Source: Candidatus Poribacteria bacterium (GTDB lineage Bacteria > Poribacteria > WGA-4E > JAJDTR01). From it: a DNA stretch of 46,740 nucleotides. Of the stretch, positions 380 to 23,625 are shown piece by piece (the first letter of the stretch is position 1; every line of letters starts with the position of its first letter). The notes under the pieces are model-generated. The model was not told the DNA's origin and did no database searches. It saw nothing but the letters and a program-made list of their open reading frames with translations. The stretch spans positions 1-46,740 of the forward strand of contig JAPPIK010000006.1 of assembly GCA_028820655.1 (NCBI GenBank). The letters run 5' to 3'. The position numbers and the translations under genes are program-made.

Positions 380-1828
380 TCAGTTTGTCCAACCCGACAT
401 CTCACGGAGATTTTCCTTCGCCGCCGCATAGTCCCGGCGTGTGCGGTAGAACACCCGCTGCGCTTCGGTAAACTCCGCTTGCGCTTGGAAAGCGTCGTCA
501 AATGTCAAGCCGCGATAACTTGGCAGATCCAACCCTTCGTCCAGAACCCGTTCAATCGTGCGCAGGCGTTGTTCAAAGATTTGCACACGCTTTTCCTCAA
601 TCTCCGTCCGTTCTTTGGCGTTTGCCACTTCTCGATAGGCGCGGCGAACCTCAACCCTGATTTGTTTCCGCAAAGCCATGAGTTCCAGTTGCAGACGAGA
701 CAGTTCTGCGCGTCCAGCTTCTTGGCGGCCGCCGGTTGATCCACCGTCGAATATTGAAAGATTCAAGTCGAAGCGGACTTCCCATCCATCACGATTGTCA
801 CGTAATCCGTTAAATGGACCGGTATCATCTGTCTCGCGTTCGAGCATAGGGTAATCGTACGCCGCGATCGTATCCCATGTCCGATGCTGCCGATTTAGGA
901 ACAGATGGGCATCGCGGTAGCGAAAAGCGGCGTCTAACACCGGGATTCTATCCCAGAATGTCTCCTTGACTAGCCTTTCCTGGCGAGATATCGTGCCTTC
1001 GAGATCTTCAATTTCCGTTCGGTTCTTTAACGCCAAATCTACCGCTAGTTCGAGTGTGATGTCATCTTCCGGCAAAGAGGCGGCCAGTCGAACCGCCGCC
1101 AGTGCGTCCAACCCGGTCAATCTAATCAGTTCCGCCTTGTCGATATCCAATCTTCGCCTCAATTCGTTAAGCGCCAACTGTTGTTCAGCCAACTCCAGCT
1201 CGGTGTTTAATACGCTCAGGATGGGTATTCTCTTTTCCGTGTGTTTCCTTTTGGCAACTCTTAGCTTTTCCCGCAGTGTGGTCTCAATAGCACCGCGCTG
1301 TTGAATTTCCTCCTCCGTCAGTGTGATGTTATGCCAAAGTCTTCTCAATCCAAAGATGATTTCCTGCTTGGCGCTCTTCAGCTCGATTCCTGACTTGCGC
1401 ACATCTTCTTGCGCCAGATCCAATTCTTGCGGAACTTCGCCAAACCGTGCAATCACTTGACTGATGGAAACACCGGAGCGGTAATCCTTTCCGTCTAGGT
1501 CCAGGTCGTCATTTTTCCGCTGTTCATAATATCCGGTGAGTCCGACCTGGGGCAGGTAAACAGAACGAGCGGTTTGCAGGTGTGCTTTCGCGCGTTCAAG
1601 AACTTTCTGTGCCTTAAGAACCTTCTCATTGTTTTTCACCGCGAGTTGCGCTGCTTTCGTCGGCGTTAGCGTCATGACATCTTGAGCCCATGCCGATCCA
1701 GAAAGATTCAAAATCAGGGCGCAAATTGCGCTCAATATGAGGCGTTCCGCGTAACGCCCGATGCACGGCGAGAAATGCTGTCCTACCATTCGGTTTCCCT
1801 TCCGTTGCACGTCTTCACTTTCCCTCAT
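380..1828 (-). CDS. TolC-family outer membrane efflux protein
   Basis: A 482-aa protein with the look of a TolC/outer membrane factor, the trimeric channel-tunnel that carries exported substrate across the outer membrane. A hydrophobic signal segment (about residues 30-48, ending SAWA-QD) follows a basic stretch. The mature part has the long amphipathic helices of the family, rich in Ala, Glu, Arg and Lys, in two halves: about 55-240 with LPQVGLTGYY, and about 260-480 with VRRAYREVANAKER. The length is normal for TolC. The ATG overlaps the TGA of the upstream NEW3 gene as ATGA, which indicates translational coupling; an internal Met at residue 14 is an alternative start closer to the signal peptide. 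Context suggests it is the outer membrane exit of the ABC system encoded upstream. The substrate is unknown. Confidence 0.88.
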   Translation of the reverse strand: MRESEDVQRKGNRMVGQHFSPCIGRYAERLILSAICALILNLSGSAWAQDVMTLTPTKAAQLAVKNNEKVLKAQKVLERAKAHLQTARSVYLPQVGLTGYYEQRKNDDLDLDGKDYRSGVSISQVIARFGEVPQELDLAQEDVRKSGIELKSAKQEIIFGLRRLWHNITLTEEEIQQRGAIETTLREKLRVAKRKHTEKRIPILSVLNTELELAEQQLALNELRRRLDIDKAELIRLTGLDALAAVRLAASLPEDDITLELAVDLALKNRTEIEDLEGTISRQERLVKETFWDRIPVLDAAFRYRDAHLFLNRQHRTWDTIAAYDYPMLERETDDTGPFNGLRDNRDGWEVRFDLNLSIFDGGSTGGRQEAGRAELSRLQLELMALRKQIRVEVRRAYREVANAKERTEIEEKRVQIFEQRLRTIERVLDEGLDLPSYRGLTFDDAFQAQAEFTEAQRVFYRTRRDYAAAKENLREMSGWTN

Positions 1829-4131
1829 CGACGACTTATTCGCACGGTGACAATCACTATCCCAATGACCAATAGCACGAGCACCCCAAACAGAATGGTT
1901 GTTACCGATAGTCTAGGTTGAGATTGGATGAGAACTCGCACCGTCTTTTCTCGTGCTTCAACATAACGATTATCGACGGTGAGTTTTGCATTGACCTTCG
2001 CTTCATACTCTCCGACACCCACATTAGGCGGCGGAATAATCGTCAAATTTACTTCGGTTTCTTCGTTGCGTACCAGTCCTGCGACGACTTCCGGCTGCAC
2101 GATATAGTCCCAGTCGGTGTAGACATCAACCTCCATACGAATATCGGCCAAATCGCGCGTACCGATATTTCGTAGTATTGCCGTCATGTCTATCTGTTCC
2201 CCGATCTTGATGGTGTGATACGAACTTGGGATAAACAGCTCAATCTCCGGCACGCCTTTGGGAATAAGTTCGAACCGCTCGATACCGCCTTTAATCCTGC
2301 TAATCTGATCCGGGGACAACTCTAGCCGATTGTTCACACCGCCGAGTTGTTGGGCTTCGTCCGCATCAATGACGGCAACGTAAAGTTCCAACGTCGAATC
2401 AAGATAGGAGGCATCAAGCTCTTCGGTCACGTGGATAGTAAGCGACAGATCTCGTTTGGACTGCGCCTGTGTAAATTTCACCTGTGACACACGCGATTTA
2501 CTCTCGGTATCTTGAAATTCAAAAGTAAAGCGCTTGAGAAGATTGATAATTCGCAATTGGAATGTATTCTCCGTTTCCGCCAACCGATCCAGCGTCAGAT
2601 CATAGGTAACGGAACTTCCCAGATTGCCCTCTTGGGAAAACTGCAGCGAACTGACGTTTACCACATCTTCCTCGGACTCCTTTTGTAGATAGACCAAGCG
2701 ATTGTCAGTCTCCAGTAGATCGGGGTATTTCAATGCGATCATGATCGAATCCACATCCTTCTGGAGTTGGAAGGTCAATTCAATTTCGTCATTGTAGCCA
2801 AGCAATGGTATCTTCCGTTCATAGGGCTGGGCGATATTTGTCGATTGAACTCCGCCAGTGGAGTCAATATCTTTGAGGGAGACGAAGATTGACCGAATCT
2901 CGTTGGCGGCGGCGATTTCTTCCGGAGAGGCGTTAACGGGCATGGATTCTGTGGTCGAGGTGTTTTTCAAGCGGACAGCCACCATTATTTGGTTGTTTTG
3001 GCGATATTTTTTTGCGCTAATGATTGAAATGTGGCGGGTATCCTCCTCAAGATGAATTTTGTAAGGATAGTTCTTCTCCAGATACCGCAGGCTCACGACG
3101 ATGCTATCAACGTTGCGGCGGAGTTCAAAATCAAGGGTTTTCGACTGTTGATCCTTAAGATTGGGGATTCGAATCTCATACGGTACTCCGATAATCGCTT
3201 CCTTTTCGTCCTTTATTGAAACGTAGACGTTGTTAATCTCTTGTGCAACATCATCTTGTGCAGTAGGCAGTCCCCCATCGTCAATGTGCTGATTAGCTTG
3301 AGGTGCGGAACTATCCAGAATCGCTCCGTATTTGAGGACAATCTCAAGCCTTCGCCGATCTCCCTCCTTGTACCGCCGCGCGGAGAGCACCGAGATGTAG
3401 GGTTCCTCCTGTTTGAGATGGATGTTGCGGTCATCATAGAGGCCAAGATATTCCAAGCTTACAACCACATCCTGCACTTCGTCTTTGGCGAGTTCAAACT
3501 CCAGAGTTTTTTCCTCACCCTCCTTCAGGGATGGAATACGAACTTCGTAGGGCGTGGCAACAATCGCACCATCCCGCCCGAAATCTCCTTGGTCTTTGAT
3601 GGAGACCAGAATGTCGTCAATCTGTGCGCTGATCACAACGTCGCGTTCCAGAACCCGCGAACTCTCCTCCAATTTAACGGGCAATGAGCTGTTTTTGAGC
3701 GTGATGGAAAACATCTCCCTGCCATCTCGCGCTTCGTAGCGTCGAGTGTCCAAGATAGTGATGCGCCACGCCGCCTTGAGCGAATCGAGTTCGGTGTTTT
3801 GCAGGTCGAGTTTTGCCTCCTCATAGTTCGCTTTGTCGCGCTCGTATTCCTCCTCGGCGCGATTCACCTCTTGGACGGTCACTATGTTGTTTGCTTCTCG
3901 GAGCATAGTCTTTAGATTATTAAGCTCATCTTCTTTCTTCTCCATCAGTTTCTTGGCTAGTTCCATTTTAAGTTTTGCTTTGTCAATCTGAATTTGGCGA
4001 AGCTGCTCATCCTTGGTACGCGCCTCTTCAGGTTCCGGCGCATCTTGGGAATCCGCCGTTTGTGACCGCAGCAGTTCATGATCCGATAGCAACATCAGAC
4101 TGACCATCAGCAAAAGGTATAATCTTTGCAC
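1825..4131 (-). CDS. Periplasmic coiled-coil/NEW3 (CARDB-like) protein with C-terminal membrane anchor
   Basis: A 768-aa protein. Start: a GTG with a good ribosome site (AAGGAG at 4141-4146, 9 nt away). The N-terminal hydrophobic segment (about 3-20) looks like a signal peptide. A strongly charged, probably coiled-coil region follows (about 35-118). Then come three internal repeats of about 120 aa (roughly 124-243, 245-362, 367-485); each carries a VSIKD/VSLKD strand, a PYE..IP motif (PYE at 194, 317 and 436) and a VVSLxYL-like strand, which suggests beta-sandwich modules. Near the C-terminus is a NEW3/CARDB-type adhesion domain (about 645-735), then one membrane helix and a short RISRR tail. 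NEW3 proteins with a C-terminal helix are often encoded beside ABC-2 permeases. Because the window has no HlyD-type fusion protein, this one may bridge the inner-membrane transporter and TolC; that is inference. Confidence 0.72.
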   Translation of the reverse strand: MQRLYLLLMVSLMLLSDHELLRSQTADSQDAPEPEEARTKDEQLRQIQIDKAKLKMELAKKLMEKKEDELNNLKTMLREANNIVTVQEVNRAEEEYERDKANYEEAKLDLQNTELDSLKAAWRITILDTRRYEARDGREMFSITLKNSSLPVKLEESSRVLERDVVISAQIDDILVSIKDQGDFGRDGAIVATPYEVRIPSLKEGEEKTLEFELAKDEVQDVVVSLEYLGLYDDRNIHLKQEEPYISVLSARRYKEGDRRRLEIVLKYGAILDSSAPQANQHIDDGGLPTAQDDVAQEINNVYVSIKDEKEAIIGVPYEIRIPNLKDQQSKTLDFELRRNVDSIVVSLRYLEKNYPYKIHLEEDTRHISIISAKKYRQNNQIMVAVRLKNTSTTESMPVNASPEEIAAANEIRSIFVSLKDIDSTGGVQSTNIAQPYERKIPLLGYNDEIELTFQLQKDVDSIMIALKYPDLLETDNRLVYLQKESEEDVVNVSSLQFSQEGNLGSSVTYDLTLDRLAETENTFQLRIINLLKRFTFEFQDTESKSRVSQVKFTQAQSKRDLSLTIHVTEELDASYLDSTLELYVAVIDADEAQQLGGVNNRLELSPDQISRIKGGIERFELIPKGVPEIELFIPSSYHTIKIGEQIDMTAILRNIGTRDLADIRMEVDVYTDWDYIVQPEVVAGLVRNEETEVNLTIIPPPNVGVGEYEAKVNAKLTVDNRYVEAREKTVRVLIQSQPRLSVTTILFGVLVLLVIGIVIVTVRISRR

Positions 4132-5285: not shown

Positions 5286-6506
5286 GGGGTAAGCCTCCTT
5301 GAATGAAATTATACATTGTGAATCACATGGATGTTAAGAGTTTGTTTGAATAATCGTTAGCAGAAGGGTTATTTTTGGCGTTTGTAGGAGGATCTTCATG
5401 TTATTATTGTTGTCCGCTATGTACCTGTGGGATTTCTATGGGATCTCTATCGCATTCGCTATTCGCTCATTTGATCCCATACGAAAAAGAGGTCGGGGCA
5501 AGGGAATTTGTTATTGTAATTGTTTTGTCCACCGTTCTGGTTTGCCAATCCAGACCGAGCGGGCAGAGATCGCGACCGGGAGAAGTTCTCTATCGCTCTA
5601 GCTAGCCGCTCGGTTAATCCGCGCCGAGGCTGAAATTCTTGTGACTTCGGTGTTACTGTACACCTTGAAGATCTCTATCGCCTTCGCTATCCGCTCAGTT
5701 GATCCCCGCTGGGGCTTGGGAGCATGGGGGTTTGGCGTTTCTATACACCTGTCCCCCCGCTGGGGCTGAGATTCTTGAATCTTTGGTATTACTGTACACT
5801 TTTAAGATCTCTATCGTACTAGGATTTCTATCGCATAGGATTTACTACCGCCCTCACTATTCGCTCATTTTATCTCGTACGAAAAAGAGGTCGGGGTAAG
5901 GGAATCTGTTATTGTAATTGTTTTGTCCACCGGTCTGGTTTGCCTATCCAGACTGAGCGGGTAAAAATCGCGACCGGGAGGAGATCTCTTCCGTCCTCGT
6001 TTTTCGCTCGGTTGATCTCCTACAACTGTTCTTAAAGGCTGGTGCGCAGTGCACACCCTACATACTATTCAGTCGCTTGATTACACCCTACTATCGCGTT
6101 CTGGATTTGCCAATCCAGAACGAGCGGGCAGAGATCGTGACCGGGAGATGATCTCTATCGCTCTAGCTAGCCGCTCGCTCGATCTCCTACAACTGTTCTT
6201 AAAGGCTGGTGCGCAGTGCACACCCTACATACTTGATCCCCTACGAAAACGCGATCGGAGTCTATTTCAATTCTAATCAGAACTCCGATACGCCAGGTTT
6301 TCCCGCGATTTCGATTTTGGTTTTAGGTAATTTTGCCGCATGATTATGTTATTATATACCTTGAAGTGACGCCGGCAAGGTCGTGGGCGTTCGTGTGATT
6401 CCTTGAGGAGAATGGATGCCTTTAATTGAGCCGAATTCACCAGAAAGCAGTTGTTAGGTGCGTAAGCAGCGTATAGTTTTATTCGTTGACACGCGAGGAT
6501 ACTTCA
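5286..6506. repeat. Repeat-dense divergent spacer upstream of ABC genes
   Basis: About 1.2 kb between the divergent ATPase and permease genes, with no believable gene. It is built from diverged direct repeats. A block of about 160 bp (GCTCATTT, ACGAAAAAGAGGTCGGGG, TTATTGTAATTGTTTTGTCC, a CTGG-TTTGCC-ATCCAG hairpin, then a CGCGACCGGGAG block) occurs at 5461-5620 and again at 5859-6020. A partial third copy lies at 6099-6200 with hairpin TTCTGGATT-TGCC-AATCCAGAA (6099-6120). A segment with the GGTGCGC hairpin (6041-6057 and 6208-6224) and flanking GATCTCCTACAACTGTTC is also duplicated (6014-6064 and 6181-6231). The last 200 bp are AT-richer and probably hold the permease promoter; TTGCCG (6333) and TATACC (6355), 16 bp apart, are a weak candidate. 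Confidence 0.75.
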
Positions 6507-8006
6507 ATGCTAATTTCGCTCATTCGTCGAGAAATCCTAGACAATCTGATGACATTCCGCTTCGCTGCGGCAACGCTGATTACATTGTTGCTCGTGGTTG
6601 CCAATACCGTTGTCCTCGTCAAGGATTTTGACCGACGACTGGCAAGTTATAACACGGCGGTCAAAACGCACCGGCAGAAATTACGGGAGACCAAAACCTA
6701 TTCCGCCGGCGAAATACGTGTTGACAGACCACCCAACCCGTTAAGCATTTTCAACGTCGGATTCGACAAACGGCTGGGTAACGAAATATGGATATATCAC
6801 GCTTTTGTGCCGACTCTCTGGGATGCCGAGATGAGCGGCTCGGACAACCCGTTTCTCAACATCTTCACCTCGATTGATGTTTCTTTTATCTTCGAGGTAG
6901 TGCTCAGCTTGATGGCGCTCATGTTTGCCTATGACGCGCTGGCGGGGGAACGTGAACGCGGCACGCTACGTTTAGTGCTGACGCATTCCGTCAGCCGCGG
7001 GACCATCCTCTTGGCGAAATACGTCGGGGCAATGCTCTGCCTGCTTATACCATTGGCGCTAAGTCTGATACTCTCGCTGATTTTGTTAACAACCAATGCC
7101 TCCTTCTCGCTTGGTACGCCCGATTTTCTACGTATCGGAGGATTCGTTCTTGCGTCGCTCTCTTATCTATCCGTGTTCTACCTCATCGGGCTGCTGATCT
7201 CGGCGGCAACACAAAGGACCAGCACCGCGCTCATGATCTCCATGTTTGTCTGGGGATTCTTGGTATTGGTCTACCCCAATATGATTCTTGCCACGATTAA
7301 GCCGTCAGCGCAGCTTCAAACGCGCGCGGAATCCGCTGTCGACGAGATGAAACAGACGTGGGATGAATTCGACAGAGAGCGGAAACGCTTCCTTGCCAAC
7401 GACGCGGTGCCCGGTGAAGACTGGAGTTTTGGGATGGTTGGCATTGGCGGGCTCATGGAATCTTTTGAATCCTCAGATGTGGGTTATTATTACCACAGTT
7501 ACATAGACTTCGAAGGCTTGTACGAGGAATTTGAACCACAGGTTCCTCACGCACAGAAGTATTTCAGTTACCTCGGTCCGCGGGTCGTCAACACCGCAGA
7601 GCGAACATGGCTCGTCCGAAAGCCGGTATTGGACAACATCTTCGTTAAACCGGCGAATTCAGAAAGAACTCTTCTCAAGTTTTCGCCGGTTGGCGTATAC
7701 GACGCGGCGACACAGAGGTTGGCAGGCACGGATCTTCTCGGGATTCGAGATTTTTTTGACGCCGCGAGGCAGTACCGACAGACGGCAATTGACTATTTCA
7801 TCAATAACGATACGTTCGGATCACTGCAATGGTTTTCTGCGGACAAGGGAGCGGCAGATTGGACGACGCTGCCACAGTTTTCTTTTCAAAGAGCCGATTT
7901 CGGAGCAAACGCAAAACGGGCACTTCCCGATTTTTGCCTGTTACTGATAACGAATCTAGCGCTGTTCATGGCGATGTTTTTGATATTCCGAAAGAGTGAA
8001 GTTTAG
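6507..8006 (+). CDS. ABC-2 type permease, type A (pair 1)
   Basis: A 499-aa inner-membrane permease of the ABC-2 superfamily, resembling the NosY/DUF3526 group. Start: ATG 6507 preceded by GAGGA at 6496-6499; a TTG 21 bp upstream would put the ribosome site inside the gene. Layout: a cytoplasmic LIRREILDN element, TM1 (about 17-36), an extracytoplasmic loop of about 100 aa with DNPFLN, a TM block (about 130-275) holding the conserved DALAGERERGTLRLVL coupling segment, a second large loop (about 280-475), and a final TM with a short FRKSEV tail. It is paralogous to the genes at 12993-14501 and 22016-23527. It is followed 142 bp later by a type B permease, with which it probably forms a heterodimer served by the nearby ATPase. 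Confidence 0.88.
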   Translation: MLISLIRREILDNLMTFRFAAATLITLLLVVANTVVLVKDFDRRLASYNTAVKTHRQKLRETKTYSAGEIRVDRPPNPLSIFNVGFDKRLGNEIWIYHAFVPTLWDAEMSGSDNPFLNIFTSIDVSFIFEVVLSLMALMFAYDALAGERERGTLRLVLTHSVSRGTILLAKYVGAMLCLLIPLALSLILSLILLTTNASFSLGTPDFLRIGGFVLASLSYLSVFYLIGLLISAATQRTSTALMISMFVWGFLVLVYPNMILATIKPSAQLQTRAESAVDEMKQTWDEFDRERKRFLANDAVPGEDWSFGMVGIGGLMESFESSDVGYYYHSYIDFEGLYEEFEPQVPHAQKYFSYLGPRVVNTAERTWLVRKPVLDNIFVKPANSERTLLKFSPVGVYDAATQRLAGTDLLGIRDFFDAARQYRQTAIDYFINNDTFGSLQWFSADKGAADWTTLPQFSFQRADFGANAKRALPDFCLLLITNLALFMAMFLIFRKSEV

Positions 8007-8148: not shown

Positions 8149-9534
8149 ATGATTTGGCACATCGCAAAACGCGAACTCTACGATAACCTCAATAGCCTCC
8201 GCTTCGCCTTGGCAACCGCCCTGCTGCTTGCATTGATGCTGACCAATGCAGTCGTGCATCTCCGAGAGCATCCGGGACGAATACAAGAATACCGTACCTC
8301 TGCCACCGATTATTGGAATGCGCTAACACCCCGGACCGATCTGTACGAGCTAGCCCAAAAGGGCCCCGGATTCCTTTACAAAAAACCCTCACCTCTTCGC
8401 TTTTGCGCGGAAGGCGGTGAAGCTTTCTTATCAAATAGGGTTGACGCAGGTTACGTTTATTGGGGCATGGATGATTTAAAAGGTTTTTGGAGTGTGGCGT
8501 ATCCATCATCTACGCCCAATCTCACGAATGTTCGTCCGGATGTTACCAAAATTGATTGGGGATTCATCGTCGGCTATGTCCTGAGTTTGATTGTGCTCCT
8601 ATTCACCTTTGATTCAATCTCCGGTGAGCGCGAGCGCGGCACGCTGCGCTTGATGTTGGCAAATCCGATGCCGCGTCACATCGTGTTAATCGGGAAGTTT
8701 TTAGGAGCGCTAATGAGCATATTGGTGCCTTTCACGTTTGCCGTGCTGATTAATCTTTTTGTAATCTCCGTTTCAGGCGATGTCCAGCTCGACGCCGAGG
8801 CGTGGGGACGTTTGAGCATTATCTTCATCGTCGCAGTTCTCTACACCGGTCTTTTCATCGCGTTGGGGCTGCTCGTTTCCTCACGTGTACGACAGAGCGC
8901 GGTAAGTCTCGTGATTCTCCTGTTAACTTGGGTTACCTTTGTCGTTTTCATGCCGAACACATTAGCCTCAATTGCGACCGGATTCTCGCCTGCTCCAATG
9001 ACCTCCGACGAATTTATGGAACGCAAAAATCAGCTCCACAACAACCGCTGGCGTGAAACCTATTCTATGCGGGATAAGCCAATGAAATTGAGCAAGTTCG
9101 TTATTAACGACGCGGAAGATCAAGAACGTTTGAATCAAGAGCACTTAACTCAGCAGATCGCTCAAGTTGAAGTGGCGCGAGCCGCAACCCGTATCTCTCC
9201 TGCGGCACTCGTCCAGCACCTTCTTGAATCCTTTGCCGGAACCGGATTTAGTCGCCACCTGCAATTCTTGGAAAATGTCCGGCAATACGTCCGTCAATAC
9301 CGCGAATTCGTCATTGACACGGATAGCGCTGATCCCGACAGCCCCCATTTCATAGGCATTTCAGAGGGCATATCCCGGAAACCCGTCAGTCCGGAGTCGA
9401 TTCCGCGATTTGAAGATTCACTCAGCCTGAGTCGTGACTTCAACGACGCGGCAATCGACTTAATGTTGTTGATGCTGCTCGTGCTTGTTCTAATGTCCGG
9501 CGCCTATCTCGTCTTTGTGCGCGCACAGGTTTGA
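8149..9534 (+). CDS. ABC-2 type permease, type B (pair 1)
   Basis: A 461-aa ABC-2 permease, the shorter partner of the type A gene upstream. It starts MIWHIAKRELYDNLNSLRF, which closely matches the type B gene at 11164-12609. TM1 is at about 19-37. A first extracytoplasmic loop contains YKKPSPLRFCAEGGE, a motif shared by type B paralogues. The central TM block holds SISGERERGTLRLML, and a second loop carries FAGTGFSRHLQFL and DSADPDSPHF before the last TM. No strong ribosome site precedes the ATG; homology fixes the start. It converges on the selenoprotein gene. The substrate is unknown. Confidence 0.86.
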   Translation: MIWHIAKRELYDNLNSLRFALATALLLALMLTNAVVHLREHPGRIQEYRTSATDYWNALTPRTDLYELAQKGPGFLYKKPSPLRFCAEGGEAFLSNRVDAGYVYWGMDDLKGFWSVAYPSSTPNLTNVRPDVTKIDWGFIVGYVLSLIVLLFTFDSISGERERGTLRLMLANPMPRHIVLIGKFLGALMSILVPFTFAVLINLFVISVSGDVQLDAEAWGRLSIIFIVAVLYTGLFIALGLLVSSRVRQSAVSLVILLLTWVTFVVFMPNTLASIATGFSPAPMTSDEFMERKNQLHNNRWRETYSMRDKPMKLSKFVINDAEDQERLNQEHLTQQIAQVEVARAATRISPAALVQHLLESFAGTGFSRHLQFLENVRQYVRQYREFVIDTDSADPDSPHFIGISEGISRKPVSPESIPRFEDSLSLSRDFNDAAIDLMLLMLLVLVLMSGAYLVFVRAQV

Positions 9535-11163: not shown

Positions 11164-12609
11164 TCATGTGACATCAACACGCACGAATGCCAGAACTGCG
11201 CCTGCGAACAGAACCACCAAGAACAAGATCAGCAATAGGATATCCGTCATCGCGGCGTTGATGGATTCTCGGAGCTCGATTCGATCCTCAAATTTCGGAA
11301 CAGCGGAATACGGCACGGGCTTTTCAGACATGCCCTGCCTCACGAAATATAGGTGCGGACTGTCCGGGTCGGATTGGTCGGCAGAGATGAGGAATTCACG
11401 ATATTGAGCGGCGTAACGGCGCACACCATCTAGAAACTGCAAATGACGAGACAAACCTGTGCCAGCCAGAGTTTCGACGGCATGTTGGACGATTGAGGCG
11501 GGCGAAACGCGCGCTATCGAACGGGCAAACCCTATCTGATCGATCTGTGTCTTTAGACGTTCCGCGCGTAAACCTTCCACTAACTCCGCCTCCGCCGCGA
11601 TGTACTTTGCCCACAACTCCGTTTCTCTTGTCGGGGGAAATTCGCGGGTGGGCCCGGGATACGGCTGCTCGTAGCGCGTGTTGAGCTCTTCGTATTGTTC
11701 GACAAAACGGCTATTGAATTCTTCCCTAGTTTGCGCGGGTTTTAGACCGCTTACAATGGATCCCAGCGTGTTAGGAGTCAAGACGACAAAGAACGCCCAG
11801 ATCAGCAAGAGGATGGTTAGGCTAATCTCTTGCTGACTCACGCGGGCAGAAATCAATAGCCCGAGGGCGATGAAAATTGACATGTAGACCAACGCAATCA
11901 AAAAAATGGCGCCCAATTGCCCCCAATCGCTCGCTTCCAGCGAGATGTGGCTGGCGGCGTTGAGTAGAAAAAGGTTGATGAGCGCGCCCATTAGAAAAGG
12001 AAGACCAATGCTCAGAAGAGCACCGAGAAACTTGCCAATCAAAATCTGAGAGCGCGGGACACTGTTGGAAAGAATCAGTCGAAGTGTTCCTCGCTCGCGT
12101 TCTCCCGAGATAGCGTCGAAAGTAAAAAGGATTGCCACAAAACTCAAGACAACGGAGATGACCAACACCCAATCAATCTGCGTATAGTCGGGTCGGATAT
12201 CTCGGAGATTCGGGTTTTTGTCGGGGTATTTCAGCCTCCAAATTCCTTTTATCCCGCCAAGGTTTCCTTCAGCGACATCCCAACTGAGAATATATTCCCC
12301 CTCAGCGGCCGAGACGCGATCTGGCAGAAAGGATTCCCCACCGTCCGCGCAAAATGACAACGGTGAAGGCTGTTTATAGAAATCACCAGGTCCCTTTTCG
12401 ATAAGGTCGTAGAGATTCTCAGATCCTGATCGCAGATGGTCTAGAGATTTAGCAACATTCTTCCGGTAGATGTTCATCTCCAAACGATAGTCGCCTAGGT
12501 GTTTGACCGCATTCACGATCATCAGCGTGAGAATCAGCAACACTGTCAGCGCGAAACGAAGGCTGTTCATGTTGTCGTAAAGTTCGCGTTTGGCGATGTG
12601 GAAGATCAT
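11164..12609 (-). CDS. ABC-2 type permease, type B (pair 2)
   Basis: A 481-aa ABC-2 permease, close in sequence to the type B protein of pair 1: HIAKRELYDNMNSLRF at the N-terminus, YKQPSPLSFCADGGE in the first loop, DAISGERERGTLRLIL in the TM core and LAGTGLSRHLQFLDG in the second loop. The start ATG is supported by GAGGA six to seven nt upstream. TM1 is at about 17-35, the TM block at about 155-300, and the last TM at about 455-475. The type A partner (12993-14501) lies upstream on the same strand, separated by 383 bp that contain hairpin repeats. This preserves the A-then-B order seen in pair 1. Confidence 0.87.
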   Translation of the reverse strand: MIFHIAKRELYDNMNSLRFALTVLLILTLMIVNAVKHLGDYRLEMNIYRKNVAKSLDHLRSGSENLYDLIEKGPGDFYKQPSPLSFCADGGESFLPDRVSAAEGEYILSWDVAEGNLGGIKGIWRLKYPDKNPNLRDIRPDYTQIDWVLVISVVLSFVAILFTFDAISGERERGTLRLILSNSVPRSQILIGKFLGALLSIGLPFLMGALINLFLLNAASHISLEASDWGQLGAIFLIALVYMSIFIALGLLISARVSQQEISLTILLLIWAFFVVLTPNTLGSIVSGLKPAQTREEFNSRFVEQYEELNTRYEQPYPGPTREFPPTRETELWAKYIAAEAELVEGLRAERLKTQIDQIGFARSIARVSPASIVQHAVETLAGTGLSRHLQFLDGVRRYAAQYREFLISADQSDPDSPHLYFVRQGMSEKPVPYSAVPKFEDRIELRESINAAMTDILLLILFLVVLFAGAVLAFVRVDVT

Positions 12610-12992: not shown

Positions 12993-14501
12993 TTATATCT
13001 GCTGTCTGACGAAAATAAGATAGGAGCCCATGAACAGCATGGCGTTAATCAGCAGCAGCAAGATCAAATCGGGCAGCGCCTGCGCTGCGGCAACCCGCAC
13101 GTCCGGTCGTTGATAGGTGAACCGCGGCAGATCAGACCAATCAACCGCCCCCGCGTCGCTTGCAAACCACTGTCTCGAACCGAAAGCGTTTTTGTCATAA
13201 AAATACGCGATAAGCGTATGTCGATACTTCCGGACCGCTTCAAAAAAATGTTCCAAGCCATCAAGGTTTGTTCCGAGCCATGCCTCGGTTGCCAAATCGT
13301 AAGCGGACGCCGGCGAAATCCTTATCAAGAATCGATCTCGCGGCACGGAACGGATAAACATCCGTGAGAGCGCCTGTTGCCGCATGATCCATGCGCGCTC
13401 GGCGGTTTTTATCCGCAGCGGTTCAATTTGGCGGAAAAATGCCTTCGCGTGCGGCACCGCCGCTTTCGATTCTTCTGAAAGATCATCAAAACTCATGGTC
13501 TGTTCGTGATAATATTCGAGTGTCATAGAATCGTAATGAAAATCAGGACCAGAGGTTTCACCGCGGTATCCTACGTTCAGAAAGGGATCCTCCCCTTCCA
13601 GCGAGTCATCTTTCAGAAGTTGCATTCGTTCTTTGTCAAACCGTCCCCAAATCTGAGCAAGCTCTTGGAATACGGCACCTCCCTCTTCCTGCGGATCAAT
13701 TTTAGGATTGCTGGCAAAAAGGATGAGATTTGGATAAATCAGGACAAAAAACACCCAGGCGAACATGCAGGTCATCAGCGCTGTCACCGTCCGACGCGTC
13801 GTCCCCGAAAATAGCAAACCCATCAGATAAAACACTGACAGGAAAAGAATCGAGGTCAAGTAAAAGCCGCCTATGCGAATCCAATCATCTCCGGAGAGGA
13901 CAATTGACCCCGAACCAGAGATTAAGAACTGCGTCAGAATCAGGCTAATTGTCAGCGGCACAACGAGCGCGATCATAGCAGCGGCGTATTTGGCGAAGAG
14001 GATTTTGCCCCGGCTTGCGGGGGTTGTCATTAGAAGACGCAAGCTACCTCTTTCATGCTCGCCAGCAATGGCATCGTAGGCAAACAGCAGCGCAAGAAGA
14101 CTCAGAACCACTTGAAAAACAAAAACCAAGTCTATCGAAGACAGGAGGTTGAGGAAAGGGTTGTCCATGCCGTACAATCCAGCGTCCCATAGCGTCGGGA
14201 CAAGAGCGTGATGGACGCGAACGGTGTTGCCCAATCGTTTTTCCAACCCCTGATTGAAAAGGCTCAAGGGATTCGGCGGTCGATCCACTTGTAAATGGAG
14301 AGGTGAATAGGTTTTTGCCGTGAGGACCCAATCGTTATGCCGTTGCACCGCGTGACGGTGGAGCGTTAACCGACGTTCATAGTCGTAGATTAATACCAGG
14401 GTGTTGGCGATGACCAGCACCAGCAGAACCATTGTCGCCACAACAAACCGATACGCCAACAGATGAGCGAGGAGTTCCCTCCGGATGAGAGTCATTAACA
14501 T
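12993..14501 (-). CDS. ABC-2 type permease, type A (pair 2)
   Basis: A 502-aa ABC-2 permease paralogous to the type A gene of pair 1: LIRRELLAHLLAYRF at the N-terminus, VDRPPNPLSLFNQGLEKRLGN in the first loop, DNPFLNLLSSIDLVFVF entering the TM block, DAIAGEHERGSLRLLM in the coupling region, and FGSRQWFASDAGAVDW before the final TM. The tail is FVRQQI. A weak purine stretch (GAAGAAAA) precedes the ATG; a second Met two codons later is an alternative. As in pair 1 it comes first in transcription order, with the type B gene downstream. With its partner it probably forms the membrane channel of an exporter powered by an ATPase such as that at 4554-5285. Confidence 0.87.
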   Translation of the reverse strand: MLMTLIRRELLAHLLAYRFVVATMVLLVLVIANTLVLIYDYERRLTLHRHAVQRHNDWVLTAKTYSPLHLQVDRPPNPLSLFNQGLEKRLGNTVRVHHALVPTLWDAGLYGMDNPFLNLLSSIDLVFVFQVVLSLLALLFAYDAIAGEHERGSLRLLMTTPASRGKILFAKYAAAMIALVVPLTISLILTQFLISGSGSIVLSGDDWIRIGGFYLTSILFLSVFYLMGLLFSGTTRRTVTALMTCMFAWVFFVLIYPNLILFASNPKIDPQEEGGAVFQELAQIWGRFDKERMQLLKDDSLEGEDPFLNVGYRGETSGPDFHYDSMTLEYYHEQTMSFDDLSEESKAAVPHAKAFFRQIEPLRIKTAERAWIMRQQALSRMFIRSVPRDRFLIRISPASAYDLATEAWLGTNLDGLEHFFEAVRKYRHTLIAYFYDKNAFGSRQWFASDAGAVDWSDLPRFTYQRPDVRVAAAQALPDLILLLLINAMLFMGSYLIFVRQQI

Positions 14502-15222: not shown

Positions 15223-17604
15223 TCAGGGATTGGGTGTTAATTTCAGTGTGTGGGTGGCAGATCCGGGCAGAAAAGGCAGCCATTCGCCTCGCACCCAATA
15301 GTCGTGCTGGTCCTTGTAGTTCTTTGACACAGGGTTGCCCGATTGACCACAGGGCATATGCAGGCTTCCATCCGGAGCGTGTCCCGGAGAAACGACCATG
15401 CGCACAGATGCGCGCGGCGACCGAACGCAACCCTCACTTCCCGGCAGCGGGTTCCTCGGCATGTTCAGAAATCTACCCAGCACCGGAAAAACACCCAATG
15501 GGTGTGAGATTTTCGGTCTGTGAATCCTGCCCCATGTCACTTGATCCAACGATTTGCAGTTGTATTCACTACAAAGTTGGTCAATGGATTGAACCAACTT
15601 TGAAAGGATGAACTCGTCCCAGTCTTGATAATTCGCCGGATCCGGAAGGGTTTCCGGTACCTTTTCGGTGAGAAGCATCTGGAGCGGGACATCCATTGCT
15701 CGCCAAGTGTACACGAAATTACTGTCAACTTCGTGGCAACGCGCCAAAAATGGTCTAAAGACATCCTTAGCCAGGATTATCCGGAACCGAACCAAAAGCC
15801 CGAAAGCCACGCTTTCTAGCTCCGCCCTACCATCCCAAGCGGCTACATGTTTTTGCGCTTGGGATAAGCGCGGAACGCCTTCGATAACACTGTCGGTCAA
15901 AACTGACAATGCCAACTGTTGGTAAAATTCATAAAACTCGAACCTCGTATCCAACTGGAGTTGAAACATATCCTGTTCGGTAATTCGCCCCGTCGCGTCC
16001 AATCGTTCGCTAATTCTGTACGCACGGTAGCTATTGGCGTAGTTATGTCCGACTGTGTAGGGATAGCTCTTGCCAAGCGTCCTATTATTCGCCGTCGCCA
16101 AAAAACCGTCCGGCGGAGCAACCAGGCGCGGCAGTTCCGGAGGTGGGATATAGCCGTCCCAACCGATGCAATCATCCGCCCAAGATTTCGTGGTAGATCC
16201 ATCGAACCCCTTTCGTATAGGAATACGACCGCAATATGTCCATCCGATGCGACCACTCAGGTCAGCCGCGACTACGTTCAACGGCGGACCGCCGAAGCGA
16301 TTCATCGCATCCAGGGCATCTTCCAGCGACTTTGCCTCATCCATTTCAAGCAAACCGATATCAACCCCGTCGGGTTGCTGCGCAGTGGCATGCATGGCAA
16401 CCGGGTTGTCCATCAATGCGGTTTCACTCACGGGGCCCCAGATTGTCAGCTTGACGGGATGGATTACGTGTTTGCCGCCCTTGATTTTGATCTGCTCGTT
16501 CACAACTTCAAACCGTGTCCATCCATTGGAGGTTTTGTATTCGTCCGGATTGTCGGGATTTATTTCCAACCGCACCAAATCAAGGAAATCTCCGCTGATA
16601 TTCGTGAATCCCCACGCCACATGTCCATTAGACCCAATAATTACCGCTGGAATGCCCGGCAAAACAATTCCAGTGGTTTCTACGCTTCCATAACTGAGGG
16701 ACGCTCGATACCACAAATTCGGTACGGAGAGACCTACATGTATATCGTTAGCCACAATCGCGCGGCCATCAAAAGTCTTTGAGCCATCCACCGCCCAATT
16801 GTTCGATCCGATTCCCAGGTCGGTTGGCTGAACCAGTTTTGCGTGCGCCGCTATTCGCGCTTGATCTCGACGAATCGAAGCGAATGCCTCGACCGGAATT
16901 GGCTGTACCGGACGGTGGGAATCGGGGCCGCCCAAAATAGTCTGCGTATAGCTTTCGGTGTCCGGGGTGAGGAAAGCGACAACCTCAGGCGGAAGAGACT
17001 CTTCCATGATGGACAGCATCCTCTCTTCATCATCGCTGAAAGACAGCATTTGAAACATATTTTGCGCGACAAGAATGCTGTCCTCCGGTTTCCAAGGCTC
17101 GGGGCGATAGCGCAGTAGGAGAAACTCCATGGGCGCGGTTCCCATCTGTTTAATGAATGCGTTCACTCCATCGGCGTAGGCAGAGAGGAGTTCTTTCTGT
17201 TCATTTGGAAGGTGGGCAACGATTTTGGATGCCGCTCGGTTGAAACCGATAACCCTTTGTCTCTTATCAGTTTCGATAGTGATGTCGCCTAGGATTTCGG
17301 AAAGCCGGCCGGCGGCGCGCCGGCGCAGCAGATCCATCTGGAAGAGCCTGTCCTGTGCGGTCACGTATCCGAGCGCCATGACCGCATCCCTTCGCGTGTG
17401 TGCGCTGATCGATGGAATTCCCAAGCGATCCGTAGTTATCGTGACCGACGAGCCCAGTCCTTCAATCTGTGTCTCGCCATCACGCACGGGCAGGGATGCG
17501 CGAAGCTTTAATATTATGAAAGTACTCACGACTATCAAGACGAAAAAAACAATCAATGACAAATATATCACGATCCTGAAATTACCTCTCCGATGCTGTG
17601 CCAT
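15223..17604 (-). CDS. Penicillin acylase family (Ntn) amidohydrolase, membrane anchored
   Basis: A 793-aa protein from ATG 17604 (a GTG three codons upstream is possible; neither has a clear ribosome site). Members of this family cleave amide bonds of penicillins, acyl-homoserine lactones or other N-acyl compounds after self-cleavage exposes a nucleophilic serine. Here the expected cleavage/nucleophile site is GIG-SNNW (Ser about 267), followed by GRAIVANDIHVGLSVPNLWY, the usual beta-chain start. The alpha-chain part has RDAVMALGYVTAQDRLFQMDLLRR. The N-terminus has one hydrophobic helix (about 9-33) without an obvious cleavage site, so the enzyme is probably tethered outside the cytoplasmic membrane. 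The C-terminal region has GCVRSPRASVRMVV and GHAPDGSLHMPCGQSGNP, also typical. Length is normal for the family. The substrate cannot be told from sequence. Confidence 0.92.
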   Translation of the reverse strand: MAQHRRGNFRIVIYLSLIVFFVLIVVSTFIILKLRASLPVRDGETQIEGLGSSVTITTDRLGIPSISAHTRRDAVMALGYVTAQDRLFQMDLLRRRAAGRLSEILGDITIETDKRQRVIGFNRAASKIVAHLPNEQKELLSAYADGVNAFIKQMGTAPMEFLLLRYRPEPWKPEDSILVAQNMFQMLSFSDDEERMLSIMEESLPPEVVAFLTPDTESYTQTILGGPDSHRPVQPIPVEAFASIRRDQARIAAHAKLVQPTDLGIGSNNWAVDGSKTFDGRAIVANDIHVGLSVPNLWYRASLSYGSVETTGIVLPGIPAVIIGSNGHVAWGFTNISGDFLDLVRLEINPDNPDEYKTSNGWTRFEVVNEQIKIKGGKHVIHPVKLTIWGPVSETALMDNPVAMHATAQQPDGVDIGLLEMDEAKSLEDALDAMNRFGGPPLNVVAADLSGRIGWTYCGRIPIRKGFDGSTTKSWADDCIGWDGYIPPPELPRLVAPPDGFLATANNRTLGKSYPYTVGHNYANSYRAYRISERLDATGRITEQDMFQLQLDTRFEFYEFYQQLALSVLTDSVIEGVPRLSQAQKHVAAWDGRAELESVAFGLLVRFRIILAKDVFRPFLARCHEVDSNFVYTWRAMDVPLQMLLTEKVPETLPDPANYQDWDEFILSKLVQSIDQLCSEYNCKSLDQVTWGRIHRPKISHPLGVFPVLGRFLNMPRNPLPGSEGCVRSPRASVRMVVSPGHAPDGSLHMPCGQSGNPVSKNYKDQHDYWVRGEWLPFLPGSATHTLKLTPNP

Positions 17605-17923
17605 AGTGACCACTATTGATTAAATCTTTACTTCAGAAAACCTGCCAATGCCCATCAGAGACAGCACCTTACCGTGCCGGCGACAAATCAGTGAAAGGTG
17701 TAATCTTCAGCCAGCGTATCGACTTCTCAGAGGACACATCCAAATGTATTCAGATTGTAACCGTTTTCCGTCGGCGTGGCAAGTCCCAGAACATCCAAAT
17801 TCAGAGTCGCCGCATCCCGTTTTAGTTAGTCGCGCAGGTTGCGTTCAAACTTATTGCGTGGTATCATGACCTCGTTCGTAATATCCAAACCGACAGGTAG
17901 TCTACGCCGAAAGGAGCCAACCA
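17605..17923. other. Divergent promoter region, acylase / PmoA-like gene
   Basis: 319 bp between divergently transcribed genes. It contains a promoter candidate for the plus-strand gene (listed separately) and its ribosome site, AAGGAG at 17911-17916. No hairpin cassette and no credible gene is seen. Confidence 0.5.
17839..17867 (+). promoter_or_regulatory. Candidate sigma-70 promoter for PmoA-like gene
   Basis: TTGCGT (17839-17844) and TATCAT (17862-17867) are separated by 17 bp and match four and five of six consensus positions. Transcription would begin near 17874, about 50 bp before the TTG start codon. Confidence 0.4.
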
Positions 17924-19191: not shown

Positions 19192-20640
19192 TCATCGCAC
19201 CTCGGATTTCAGAAAAGCCATAAAACTCACCAGAGAAATCACCACAAAAAAGAGAGTTAGCAAGCCAAAATCCTTCAGTGTCTCGCCCGCGATCAGGCGG
19301 TTAATTGTAAACGCCTCGAAACGGGGAACGTCCGAAACGGGTACAGGCTTGTTGGATAACCCTTCTTTGAGATAGAAGATGTGGGGACTGTCGGGGTCAG
19401 TGCTGTCTGTTTCCTTGATGAACTCGATGAATTGCTGCCGATACCGTCTGGCAGCCGCAACAAATTCTTGATGTCCCGCAAATCCCGTTCTCGCCAAAGA
19501 TCCCATCCCGTAGTTATACATGACTGTCGGAGAAAGACGTAATATCTGCCGGGCAAATTGTACCTGAGCAAACTGCGCATCAAGATGTTCGTCATCAAGG
19601 CGAGTCTCTATATTCCATGGTGTTGTGATGTAGTCTGCCCACAACTCAAGCGCTCGTCTGTCGGCATCGGGATCGGTCGGGGAGCCGTACTTGAACAGTT
19701 CATGATAATTATACGTCTCGCTCCCCAATGCCGCGAATCTCTTCTCTTGGAATTCTCGCTGCGACGGGACGGTGTGTAGCGTGCTGACGACGCTACCGAA
19801 CGTGTTTGGAATAAGGACTACCAAAACAATCCAGATGAGAAGCAGTACGACGAGGCTCGTCGAAGAATTCGCCGCACGACTCGAAATCGCCAAACCCAAT
19901 GCCACGAACAGTGCGACATAAACAGACGATAACGCCACCATCACCCCGATGCGCGCCCAGTCGGCGCCTTGGAGGGACACAACCCCCGATATTGTCACAA
20001 TCAACGTGCTAAGCAGAATTCCAATCAACATGGATACGACAATGACGACGAGGGCTCCAAGGAATTTTCCGGCAAGTACACCTGCGCGCGACACGGCATT
20101 CGACAAAACCAGCGGCAGCGTGCCGTTTTCTCGTTCCCCCGATATGGCATCAAAGGTAAGAAGAATAGCCACAAAACTCGTCACAAGCCCTATGATATAA
20201 GCCCAATCCAATGCTCCGACCGCAGGAAGCATCGAATTGTCTTGATAGCTATCCGTTACATATTGCAACCTCCACGGCAAGCTATATCTGTAGGATCCTT
20301 TTTCTCCCGCCCGGGACATATTGCTCGGTACTTCAGCCGCTATGTGGGTTGGCAATGCGTCTTCCCGATCAGCAGCACAAAATGCCAATGGACTTGGACG
20401 TTTGTACAGCGCAATCGGGCCTCGTGTAGCCAACTCGTTTAGGCGCCGGCAACTCTCTCTGATTTCATCGTTGACCCACGCATTGTTCAAAGAATACTCC
20501 GCAAGCCTCTGTTTGTAATCGCCTCCTGCAAAAATCAACGCACCCAAAACCATGAGCGACGTCACCGCTCCAAGGCTTAACGCAAAGCGAAGGGACATGA
20601 GATGGTCAAGAATCTCGCGCTTCATAATGTGGAAGAACAT
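19192..20640 (-). CDS. ABC-2 type permease, type B (pair 3)
   Basis: A 482-aa ABC-2 permease from ATG 20640, chosen because AAGGA lies eight nt upstream; a TTG two codons earlier is possible. It shares the type B features: HIMKREILDHLMSLRF, YKRPSPLAFCAADRE in the first loop, DAISGERENGTLPLVL in the TM core, LARTGFAGHQEFVAA in the second loop, DSTDPDSPHIFYL, and a final TM with a FLKSEVR tail. It is more diverged than the type B proteins of pairs 1 and 2 are from each other. Its probable type A partner (22016-23527) is upstream on the same strand, but a broken LamG gene lies between them. Confidence 0.86.
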   Translation of the reverse strand: MFFHIMKREILDHLMSLRFALSLGAVTSLMVLGALIFAGGDYKQRLAEYSLNNAWVNDEIRESCRRLNELATRGPIALYKRPSPLAFCAADREDALPTHIAAEVPSNMSRAGEKGSYRYSLPWRLQYVTDSYQDNSMLPAVGALDWAYIIGLVTSFVAILLTFDAISGERENGTLPLVLSNAVSRAGVLAGKFLGALVVIVVSMLIGILLSTLIVTISGVVSLQGADWARIGVMVALSSVYVALFVALGLAISSRAANSSTSLVVLLLIWIVLVVLIPNTFGSVVSTLHTVPSQREFQEKRFAALGSETYNYHELFKYGSPTDPDADRRALELWADYITTPWNIETRLDDEHLDAQFAQVQFARQILRLSPTVMYNYGMGSLARTGFAGHQEFVAAARRYRQQFIEFIKETDSTDPDSPHIFYLKEGLSNKPVPVSDVPRFEAFTINRLIAGETLKDFGLLTLFFVVISLVSFMAFLKSEVR

Positions 20641-20856
20641 GGACAAAATCCTTGTATTTGGTCGCCAACGAGTTCAAAGCGCTAGCTTCATAAGCAAGTT
20701 TGAACGTCCGATATGATTGGAAATACACCTCGCGAGATGTGAAATAATTGAGCAAACTATGCTGTGGCTTTCGGTTATAAAGAGTTGAATTTATCTCTCA
20801 ATCGGCTGGAAATCGGATGTCCGCCATTTGGATTTCTCAAGAAATATCAACACAAC

Positions 20857-22015: not shown

Positions 22016-23527
22016 TCAACTCACATCCGACCTTAGAAACAACATGCAAGTTAAAAGAAAGAAAACTAGGTTTAGAAGCACTAACAAACCGACATAAATG
22101 CTAATCCTTGAGAGAATAGTCAATAACGATTCGGGATGTTCGCGAAAGAGCGGGATGTCGCCGGCGTCAATCTTTTTGAATGCCTTAGGGTTGTACCACG
22201 CTTCCGAATCGAATGCTTTTTGATCGCGCAAATATCGGATTAGCTCATTTCGGTAGTTTCTAACTTCATCCAAGAAACGCAGATGGCTCTCCAGATCGGT
22301 TTCGGTAAGGACTGCGGTTGCGTACCAATAAACCGATGCCGGCGAAAAGCTTGAAATTTGTTGCGTCAGTTTTGCTTGTCGGATCGGATTCCGGATCAGA
22401 AACTCTGTCCTTAACCGGTCAACCTCATCCGCATATTGAATGTTCAGTTCTTCCTGAAATTTTAGGATCTCGTGAAAGGTCGGCAGTCGATTTGGGGCGC
22501 CGACAAGGGATCCGACGTATTCGTGACCCATAAGTGAATAGGAACTCATCGACCCATTGAACAATAGCTTAAAATTCCGTTTCTGCTTAAACTCCTCAAG
22601 TTCGCGCTCAAACTTCTGCGACAATTCATGAAGCGGGTGCCGGGAAGGGTCTCCCCTTTTGGAAAAAAGCAAGCGGGAATAACTCTCAAAGCTTAGTTGA
22701 CTCTCCGATCTGATAGGCATCAATTTAGAGACGGCAAAAGCGCAGGCTCTGGGAAAAATCAACACAAACAGTGCCCAGACGAACATCGTGAGAATCAAGG
22801 CGGTGGTTGCACGACCTGCCCAAGTCGAAAACAGCATACCCAATGTATAAAAAACCGACATGTATATCAGGGAAATCAAGCAGAAGATGCCAATTCGTGC
22901 CCAATCCGATGCACTGATGACGACATAGGGCGACATGATGATGAAGAGTAGCGCCGCCAATAGGCTGAATACCAAGGGGATGGCTAAACTCAGCATCCCG
23001 CCCAAATACTTGCCGAAAAGCAGCTTGCCCCGCGGTACGGCATTCGACATCACGAGCGCCAGTGTGCCGCTCTGGCGCTCGCCGGCAATGACGTCGTATG
23101 AAATCAGAAACGCCAGGAGGCTAATTACAATCTGGAATACGAATGTTAGATCGGTACGTGGAAAAACGACGAGATAAGGGTTGTCCGACCCGTGCCGCGA
23201 CGCATGCACCGGCACCAAAACGTGGGAGACCTTAACGCTGTTGCCCAGGCGTCCTTCAAGACCTTCGTTCAATATACTTAGCAAAGGCGGTTTTTTTTCG
23301 GCTCTGGGGCTATGACTGTTTGAAAGTTGAGAATATGTCAAGATATTACGCACTTCACTTGCATTCGCGTCCACAGCGCGTCGATAGTCACCCAGGCGAT
23401 GTGTGTAGCTTCGCACGAGCACCCATGTATTCAGGCTAACCAGAGCGGTACAAATGATTAACCCGAGCAGAAACCGGAGTGTAAAAATGTGCGCCAGAAA
23501 CTCGCGCCAGATGATTATCTTTAACAT
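22016..23527 (-). CDS. ABC-2 type permease, type A (pair 3)
   Basis: A 503-aa ABC-2 permease. ATG 23527 is chosen because the protein then begins MLKIIIWREFLAHIFTLRF, aligned with the other type A paralogues; an in-frame start 13 codons upstream has no better ribosome site. It shows the type A pattern: TM1 (about 20-38), a first loop with PPLLSILNEGLEGRLGN and DNPYLVVFPRTDLTFVF, a TM block with DVIAGERQSGTLALVM, a second loop of about 200 aa with SFSPASVYWYATAVLTE and DQKAFDSEAWYNP, and a last TM followed by FLRSDVS. It is separated from its likely type B partner by the LamG pseudogene. Confidence 0.86.
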   Translation of the reverse strand: MLKIIIWREFLAHIFTLRFLLGLIICTALVSLNTWVLVRSYTHRLGDYRRAVDANASEVRNILTYSQLSNSHSPRAEKKPPLLSILNEGLEGRLGNSVKVSHVLVPVHASRHGSDNPYLVVFPRTDLTFVFQIVISLLAFLISYDVIAGERQSGTLALVMSNAVPRGKLLFGKYLGGMLSLAIPLVFSLLAALLFIIMSPYVVISASDWARIGIFCLISLIYMSVFYTLGMLFSTWAGRATTALILTMFVWALFVLIFPRACAFAVSKLMPIRSESQLSFESYSRLLFSKRGDPSRHPLHELSQKFERELEEFKQKRNFKLLFNGSMSSYSLMGHEYVGSLVGAPNRLPTFHEILKFQEELNIQYADEVDRLRTEFLIRNPIRQAKLTQQISSFSPASVYWYATAVLTETDLESHLRFLDEVRNYRNELIRYLRDQKAFDSEAWYNPKAFKKIDAGDIPLFREHPESLLTILSRISIYVGLLVLLNLVFFLLTCMLFLRSDVS

Positions 23528-23625
23528 TAGCAAGTTTTCGTATTGAATAGGTCCGGCGCACTTCAACTCGCAGTTGTCCGATTCGTCCCGATGCGCACCT
23601 TGCCAGACTTTCCAGTAGAGGCGAG

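Follow-up and report, generated by a model that had tools for sequence, protein, structure and literature searches.

How might an ATP-binding cassette (ABC) exporter reach an outer membrane channel where no adaptor of the familiar kind is encoded beside it? The question is raised by one end of a Candidatus Poribacteria contig (JAPPIK010000006.1, assembly GCA_028820655.1), of which positions 1 to 46,740 were analysed and are referred to here as the window. Along its (-) strand run the genes for an ABC ATPase, a 768-residue protein with a NEW3 domain and a TolC-type outer membrane channel, and two divergent ABC-2 permease genes begin at 6507 and 8149. A preliminary description, made from the DNA letters and their open reading frames (ORFs), had noted that no adaptor of the HlyD/MacA type, i.e. 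no membrane fusion protein (MFP), is encoded in the window, and indeed none was found there with an MFP profile.

The same description suggested that the NEW3 protein takes the place of the MFP and that its C-terminal anchor would reverse the usual topology of tripartite exporters. The results reviewed below favour that suggestion. We consider it likely that the NEW3 protein serves an ABC-2 (DUF3526-type) tripartite exporter as a C-terminally anchored periplasmic adaptor, the reverse of the layout in HlyD, MacA and AcrA; an MFP-like hairpin, a C-terminal helix throughout nearly the whole family and the lack of a linked HlyD gene all speak for this, with docking on TolC predicted from the hairpin.

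A predicted helical hairpin at the head of a linear chain

The order of domains in the NEW3 protein is linear (Table 1). Behind a signal-like N-terminal segment and a mere 15–25 residues predicted to be disordered come the two hairpin helices, residues 40–77 and 86–121 in the full-length AlphaFold2 model and 40–78 and 86–117 in a model of the fragment 38–245, with an eight-residue tip. Where the preliminary description had seen a charged coiled coil, the region is present but is more exactly a helical hairpin that superposes on MFP hairpins. The other domains it named hold up. The three repeats of about 120 residues, D1–D3, are pairwise 29–34% identical (E 6.9e-20 to 2.5e-13) and carry PYE at residues 194, 317 and 436, each followed by xxIP; D1 resembles beta-sandwich domains both in Foldseek and in a second-look structural alignment of the fragment model. 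The NEW3 domain (NPCBM_assoc, PF10633) passes narrowly in the window protein, at 25.1 bits against a cut-off of 24.4, and scores 29.8–53.2 bits in seven relatives (six short forms and L133), all above the cut-off. As for the C-terminal membrane helix, the sole hydropathy peak above 1.6 in the window protein spans residues 738–768, the chain ends in RISRR after the helix, and a C-terminal hydrophobic window is found in 32 of the 33 family members, the remaining one being truncated at a contig end.

At the other end of the chain, 19-residue hydropathy reaches 1.29 in the window protein, compared to 1.94–3.21 in ten MFPs. A loose signal-peptidase rule does not discriminate between the two groups, because it is satisfied by 30 of 33 NEW3 proteins and by nine of ten MFPs. 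A lipoprotein anchor was considered and dropped, direct reading of the window protein finding no lipobox cysteine. A lipoyl domain split by the hairpin was also looked for, and no lipoyl model matches the window protein or the relatives checked; nor does the window protein have a Pfam match to the beta-barrel or membrane-proximal domains of MFPs, its repeats resembling beta-sandwich domains. Because no lipoyl half precedes the hairpin, the NEW3 protein is not classed as an HlyD or MFP protein, and filing it under the HlyD family was abandoned, even though it most likely works as an MFP does.

The case from sequence for an MFP-like hairpin was made at the level of the family, with a profile of 22 hairpins taken from a 33-protein family alignment. 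Against 177,635 PDB sequences (E<=10) this profile gives 29 matches, of which ranks 1–11 fall to MFPs and to 4l8j, an efflux protein resembling them, at E 1.9e-6 to 1.5e-3 and aligned on the MFP helical hairpins; the first non-MFP match, a designed helical bundle, stands at rank 12 (E 0.016), with a few other coiled coils lower. A control of the same composition, in which the hairpins were shuffled in seven-residue blocks, gives two PDB matches and no MFP. In NCBIfam, the RND_mfp model is matched by 21 of 22 hairpins at E<=10 (best 1.3e-5), the CzcB-type model by 15, the EmrA-type by 12 and HlyD by 11, and with the shuffled control no MFP model appears among the 25 of 26 families listed. When the full-family profile is searched against PDB, MFP hairpins again come first, together with one glycosidase that is matched on the NEW3 region. 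The reverse search, with a profile of ten canonical MFPs over 1,562 ORFs, returns 19 matches at E<=0.01, namely six training MFPs, two further MFPs in locus L182 and 11 of 58 NEW3 proteins. The excerpted text of PMC3391258 gives RxxxLxxxxxxS (T in HlyD) as the TolC-binding tip motif, and of the 22 NEW3-family hairpins all have [LM], 18 have [ST] and 20 keep the x6 spacing.

We conclude that at the family level the hairpin resembles MFP hairpins in sequence. For the window's own branch the resemblance is by model only, and the sequence case reaches the window protein by way of homology, since the short-form profile built from relatives aligns to the whole family; compared directly, the Poribacteria hairpin profile and the short-form profile align at only 25% probability (P 7.9e-4).

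Structure prediction, which the preliminary description had called for, does yield a helical hairpin of the MFP type. Within the full-length model the hairpin has a predicted local distance difference test score (pLDDT) mostly of 78–93, and a Foldseek search with that model returns no MFP among its best 50 matches, the list being made up of beta-sandwich bead proteins such as alpha-2-macroglobulin, complement and ciliary central-pair proteins. Because the repeats dominate that search, the fragment 38–245 was folded separately, using Poribacteria sequences only, and reached pLDDT 84 with a predicted template modelling score (pTM) of 0.65. In VIA-align its hairpin superposes on AcrA over 81 residues at 2.1 Å (Z 11.1), on TMexC over 75 residues at 1.1 Å (Z 10.9) and on MacA over 82 residues at 2.0 Å (Z 9.8), although the tool itself warns that Z below about 13 may be common for helical arrangements. 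All 12 matches confined to the hairpin among the best 50 are adaptors, several of them repeating the same protein. The preliminary description would have given up its proposal for a structure in which no helical hairpin could reach TolC; the predicted structure does contain a hairpin of the MFP type.

Linkage to the ATPase and the TolC-type channel

Of 84 Poribacteria genomes, 56 encode a homolog of the NEW3 hairpin protein, and all 49 of the named loci with it come from Poribacteria metagenome-assembled genomes. A wider search of 386 genomes found the protein in 62, six of them outside Poribacteria, the non-Poribacteria part of the set amounting to about 302 genomes if all 84 Poribacteria are included. 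Phylum-wide searches around two of these six carriers found it in 3 of 9 and 29 of 64 genomes, starting genomes counted, and at least three other phyla are involved, because the four remaining carriers are in neither phylum list. The relatives outside Poribacteria are shorter (496–536 residues) and have one repeat rather than three; hairpin, one repeat, conserved region, NEW3 and C-terminal helix are common to both forms. At L187, L188, L189, L190, L192, L193 and L196, two NEW3 genes follow TolC directly in tandem, several with 4-nt overlaps, an arrangement frequent in one family of another phylum. Such tandem copies would fit a hetero-oligomeric adaptor, which is possible.

The position of the NEW3 protein between ATPase and TolC, as first described, is borne out by Pfam, with PF00005 at 103 bits on one side and PF02321 at 133.2 bits, against a cut-off of 22, on the other, which identifies the channel as TolC/OEP; PF12679 permeases and the PF00005 ATPase, all above cut-off, identify a neighbouring ABC-2 exporter. 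The order ATPase, NEW3, TolC on one strand is found in 20 of 20 Poribacteria loci. Among 26 loci from elsewhere, many on short, cut contigs, 18 have ABC-2 permeases within 8 kb, 17 have TolC and 15 the ATPase, in several gene orders. Just upstream of the NEW3 gene, three of these loci encode a protein matching HtrA-type PDZ regions (L147:7607-8395, L148:8638-9072, L178:10429-10854), and no TolC was found there.

Co-occurrence across genomes is close. The ATPase (E<=1e-65) is present in 63 of the 386 genomes and accompanies the NEW3 protein in 61, leaving three discordant; Fisher's p is 1.5e-67 overall and 2.8e-11 outside the phylum, values that are indicative and ignore shared ancestry. The one genome that seemed to have the NEW3 protein alone, G016, does encode the ATPase, split by a frameshift into two pieces (L009:736-1391). 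The two discordant ATPase carriers, G194 and G331 from one genus, encode an ATPase 50–51% identical and a pair of permeases, and neither a NEW3 protein nor a TolC or MFP gene was recognised in 18 kb. In another genome, G042 (contig C169), the ATPase gives a partial match and the NEW3 gene has an in-frame TAA; the lesions in G016 and G042 may be real decay or assembly error.

An HlyD-family gene consistently linked to the ATPase in relatives would have told for a conventional exporter, and no such linkage was seen. At distances of up to 8 kb from the NEW3 gene, an MFP was found at none of the 20 Poribacteria loci and at one of the 26 others, many of which are cut by contig ends, and none was recognised in the 18 kb covered for G194 and G331. 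This absence rests on BLAST against five MFPs (ORFs of at least 150 residues) and on the MFP profile (ORFs of at least 100 residues); a Pfam tally of neighbouring ORFs, covering the 25 commonest of 193 families and 117 of 181 unassigned or MFP-labelled ORFs, was not used for it, since a rare MFP could escape such a tally.

The preliminary description also reported translational coupling of TolC to the NEW3 gene through an ATGA. The overlap exists, at 1825–1828, but coupling is doubtful in this genome, because an ATG downstream in the TolC gene (1787–1789, 13 codons inside the longest ORF) has the better ribosome-binding site, read directly as GGAAGGG at 7 nt, and sits closer to the signal peptide. 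That ATG is probably the true start, and the overlap was dropped as evidence of coupling here. Elsewhere, 4-nt TolC–NEW3 overlaps occur in 8 of the 26 non-Poribacteria loci (L180, L187, L188, L189, L190, L192, L193 and L196, with longest-ORF starts). The NEW3 ORF itself opens with GTG, with AAGGAG 9 nt upstream.

Counter-evidence and rival explanations

To the caution on Z scores should be added a number of observations that weigh against the adaptor proposal. The full-length model is poor as a whole (pLDDT 66.5, pTM 0.33), and Foldseek with the fragment places AcrA 5th, 6th, 16th and 27th (E 1.2e-3 to 5.9e-3), below Ig-like and other unrelated proteins. A hairpin profile from the window's branch (20 Poribacteria sequences) gives three PDB matches, none an MFP and the best at E 0.16; a branch-only profile of residues 38–245 gives one, again not an MFP, and the single window sequence gives one, an unrelated pore protein at E 1.6. 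With MFP models the window hairpin alone reaches E 0.1 at best (HlyD, NCBIfam), and the whole window protein matches none. The default reverse search includes none of the 21 long forms (the window and L021–L040); with filters off they fall between E 0.0014 and 5.3, the window at 0.36, and unrelated ORFs appear from 0.0081. Pfam's sole match common to more than four of the 22 hairpins is to the helices of OEP/TolC (15 of 22, best 5.6e-4). Of the 22 hairpins, 5 have the R/K of the RLS motif, and the tip in the window's branch has two extra residues (read in two rows from the window's order and common to 21 aligned sequences), the window protein having M-x8-T and no R/K at -4. With regard to topology, the N-terminal segments of 23 of 33 relatives exceed 1.6 in hydropathy and overlap the range of membrane anchors. 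With regard to linkage, eight of the 26 non-Poribacteria loci have the ATPase and no TolC gene found nearby (L147, L148, L149, L178, L179, L181, L182 and L185), and the window is not alone in having a TolC gene without an MFP next to it, because the same holds for the TolC-type genes on contig 24 and, near 488 kb, on contig 4.

Could a canonical HlyD-type adaptor be encoded elsewhere, leaving the NEW3 protein as an accessory subunit for assembly, substrate or peptidoglycan binding? The genome does have ten matches to the RND_mfp model, the six of ten listed all lying on contigs other than the window's, and in L182 an MFP gene follows the ATPase at a distance of 3.2 kb. The MFP genes on contigs 4, 30 and 60, however, adjoin TolC-type and pump genes of their own. 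Beside the window's gene, seven TolC-type ORFs in all being seen in this genome, four others, a pair on contig 4 near 500 kb and single genes on contigs 30 and 60, adjoin canonical MFP genes, and the pump genes at these three loci are large and RND-type by eye or, on contig 60, an ATPase gene; in the window, it is the NEW3 gene that occupies the place held by the MFP gene at those loci. Since the MFP gene in L182 follows a second, different ATPase gene, since 45 of 46 loci yielded no MFP within 8 kb of the NEW3 gene, and since the NEW3 family itself carries an MFP-like hairpin, we regard an accessory role as unlikely. It is quite unlikely, too, that the hairpin serves some other contact, such as self-assembly, peptidoglycan, substrate or the outer loops of the permeases, with TolC merely a neighbour used by other pumps. 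The eight loci that keep the ATPase with no TolC found, three of them with the upstream HtrA-type match, would suit this explanation, as would the general absence of the RLS-motif arginine. Yet TolC adjacency persists across different gene orders, with several 4-nt overlaps, the other two motif positions are kept at the frequencies given above, and in E. coli, too, most of the pumps served by tolC are encoded away from it.

The likeness to MFP hairpins might also be a matter of chance, or of composition, as in any charged coiled coil. The designed bundle and coiled coils lower in the PDB list, and the lack of any MFP match for the window's branch alone, could be read in that way, but the block-shuffled control finds no MFP, the PDB matches align to the MFP hairpin in register, and the default reverse search over all 1,562 ORFs returns MFPs and NEW3 proteins exclusively, so that chance appears highly improbable. 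The reading of the NEW3 protein as a C-terminally anchored adaptor is accordingly the one followed below.

A probable shared export hub and the relation of the proposed adaptor to known ones

Table 1. Features of the window and of the NEW3 hairpin protein
Feature	Position	Strand	Basis
NEW3 hairpin protein, 768 residues, proposed C-terminally anchored periplasmic adaptor	1825..4131	-	ORF; homologs
Alpha-helical hairpin, residues 40-121, tip 78-85	3769..4014	-	AlphaFold2; family profile; VIA-align
Three beta repeats of ~120 residues, D1-D3 (about 124-241, 245-362, 367-486)	2674..3762	-	repeat identity; model strands
Conserved region, residues about 487-628, pLDDT mostly <55	2248..2673	-	alignment; model
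NEW3 domain, residues 642-717	1981..2208	-	PF10633
C-terminal transmembrane helix, residues 743-764, then positively charged tail	1840..1905	-	hydropathy; model
TolC-type outer membrane channel, 482 residues, likely real start 1789	380..1828	-	PF02321, 133 bits, two stretches
ABC ATPase, 243 residues	4554..5285	-	PF00005, 103 bits; co-occurrence with NEW3 protein
ABC-2 permease, type A, pair 1	6507..8006	+	PF12679 and DUF3526; pairing by similarity
ABC-2 permease, type B, pair 1	8149..9534	+	PF12679 and DUF3526; pairing by similarity
ABC-2 permease, type B, pair 2	11164..12609	-	PF12679; 49% identity to 8149-9534
ABC-2 permease, type A, pair 2	12993..14501	-	PF12679; 48% identity to 6507-8006
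ABC-2 permease, type B, pair 3	19192..20646	-	PF12679; pairing by similarity
ABC-2 permease, type A, pair 3	22016..23566	-	PF12679; pairing by similarity

This genome has eight PF12679 permeases (E<=1e-15), of which the window encodes six and contig 1 the other two. By similarity those of the window form three pairs of a type A and a type B protein, and the contig-1 permeases (L232:8380-11555) make up a fourth, with no ORF similar to the window ATPase nearby (19 kb). Set against these four A/B pairs is one ATPase of this type found genome-wide (E<=1e-80), so a single ATPase, adaptor and channel likely serve all four, three in the window and one elsewhere. In the 20 other Poribacteria loci, one to seven permease genes surround the trio within 8 kb. 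A penicillin amidase-type enzyme (PF01804) is encoded between permease pairs of the window, at 15223–17613, and dispersed intergenic repeats of the form GCTGGTGCGCAGTGC..CACCCTACA were seen by eye at 1–260 and 6040–6240.

How would such an adaptor work? A Sec signal peptide would be removed, as we infer, and the chain would then lead in a single pass from TolC at one end to the inner membrane at the other, a topology that depends on this removal. The N-terminal hairpin would point away from the inner membrane and dock on the periplasmic mouth of the neighbouring TolC-type channel, a role assigned to it because it resembles MFP hairpins. A beta-sandwich stalk, of one repeat in the short forms or three in Poribacteria, followed by the conserved region and NEW3, would span the periplasm, and the single C-terminal helix would anchor the adaptor beside the ABC-2 permeases and pack against them, with the neighbouring ATPase supplying the power. 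By analogy with MFPs, the adaptor probably forms a ring in which the hairpins meet the periplasmic tips of the channel.

More broadly, the data could describe a second adaptor architecture, present in several phyla, in which a free N-terminal hairpin is carried on a linear, C-anchored beta-sandwich stalk, the number of repeats (one or three) sets its reach, and the hub of ATPase, adaptor and TolC serves several permease pairs around it and elsewhere in the genome; for this wider picture the balance is about even. If true, the hairpin would be a transferable TolC-docking module, for which the lipoyl and barrel body is dispensable, and there would be an explanation of how ABC-2 permease arrays that lack an ATPase, in Poribacteria as in other phyla, could gain access to the outer membrane. 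Proteins with one repeat and with three would also permit a direct test of adaptor length versus periplasm width. Among the best-ranked results of a search of open-licence papers, no C-anchored or NEW3-type exporter adaptor is described.

Considering known systems, the E. coli YbhG–YbhF–YbhS–YbhR set resembles the window in that membrane subunits of an ABC exporter, an ATPase and an adaptor-type gene lie side by side, although YbhG differs from the NEW3 protein in being annotated to the HlyD_D23 family. The YbhS and YbhR permeases are of the ABC-2 type and the Ybh system works with TolC. In common with HlyD, MacA and AcrA, the NEW3 family has an alpha-helical hairpin, with Leu/Met conserved at its tip and mostly Ser/Thr, and its genes lie with those for a TolC-type channel and a transporter of the inner membrane. 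The difference lies in the path of the chain, which in the NEW3 protein is linear, from hairpin through beta repeats and NEW3 to the C-terminal helix, with no lipoyl domain found. Known adaptors, according to excerpts of PMC8277102, resemble a safety pin in that the chain doubles back, both halves contribute to the domains and both ends lie near the inner membrane, and the excerpted part of PMC13328181 describes their anchors as typically N-terminal, a lipid or a helix. BesA of Borrelia burgdorferi is another adaptor whose set of domains is not the standard one, but in the opposite sense. It is without the hairpin according to extracts of PMC8277102 and PMC3807786, whereas the NEW3 protein keeps the hairpin and differs in the rest. 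Finally, the window protein shares one PF10633 domain above cut-off with other NEW3 (NPCBM_assoc) proteins, and it differs from them as a proposed exporter adaptor bearing a domain that was named from alpha-galactosidase.

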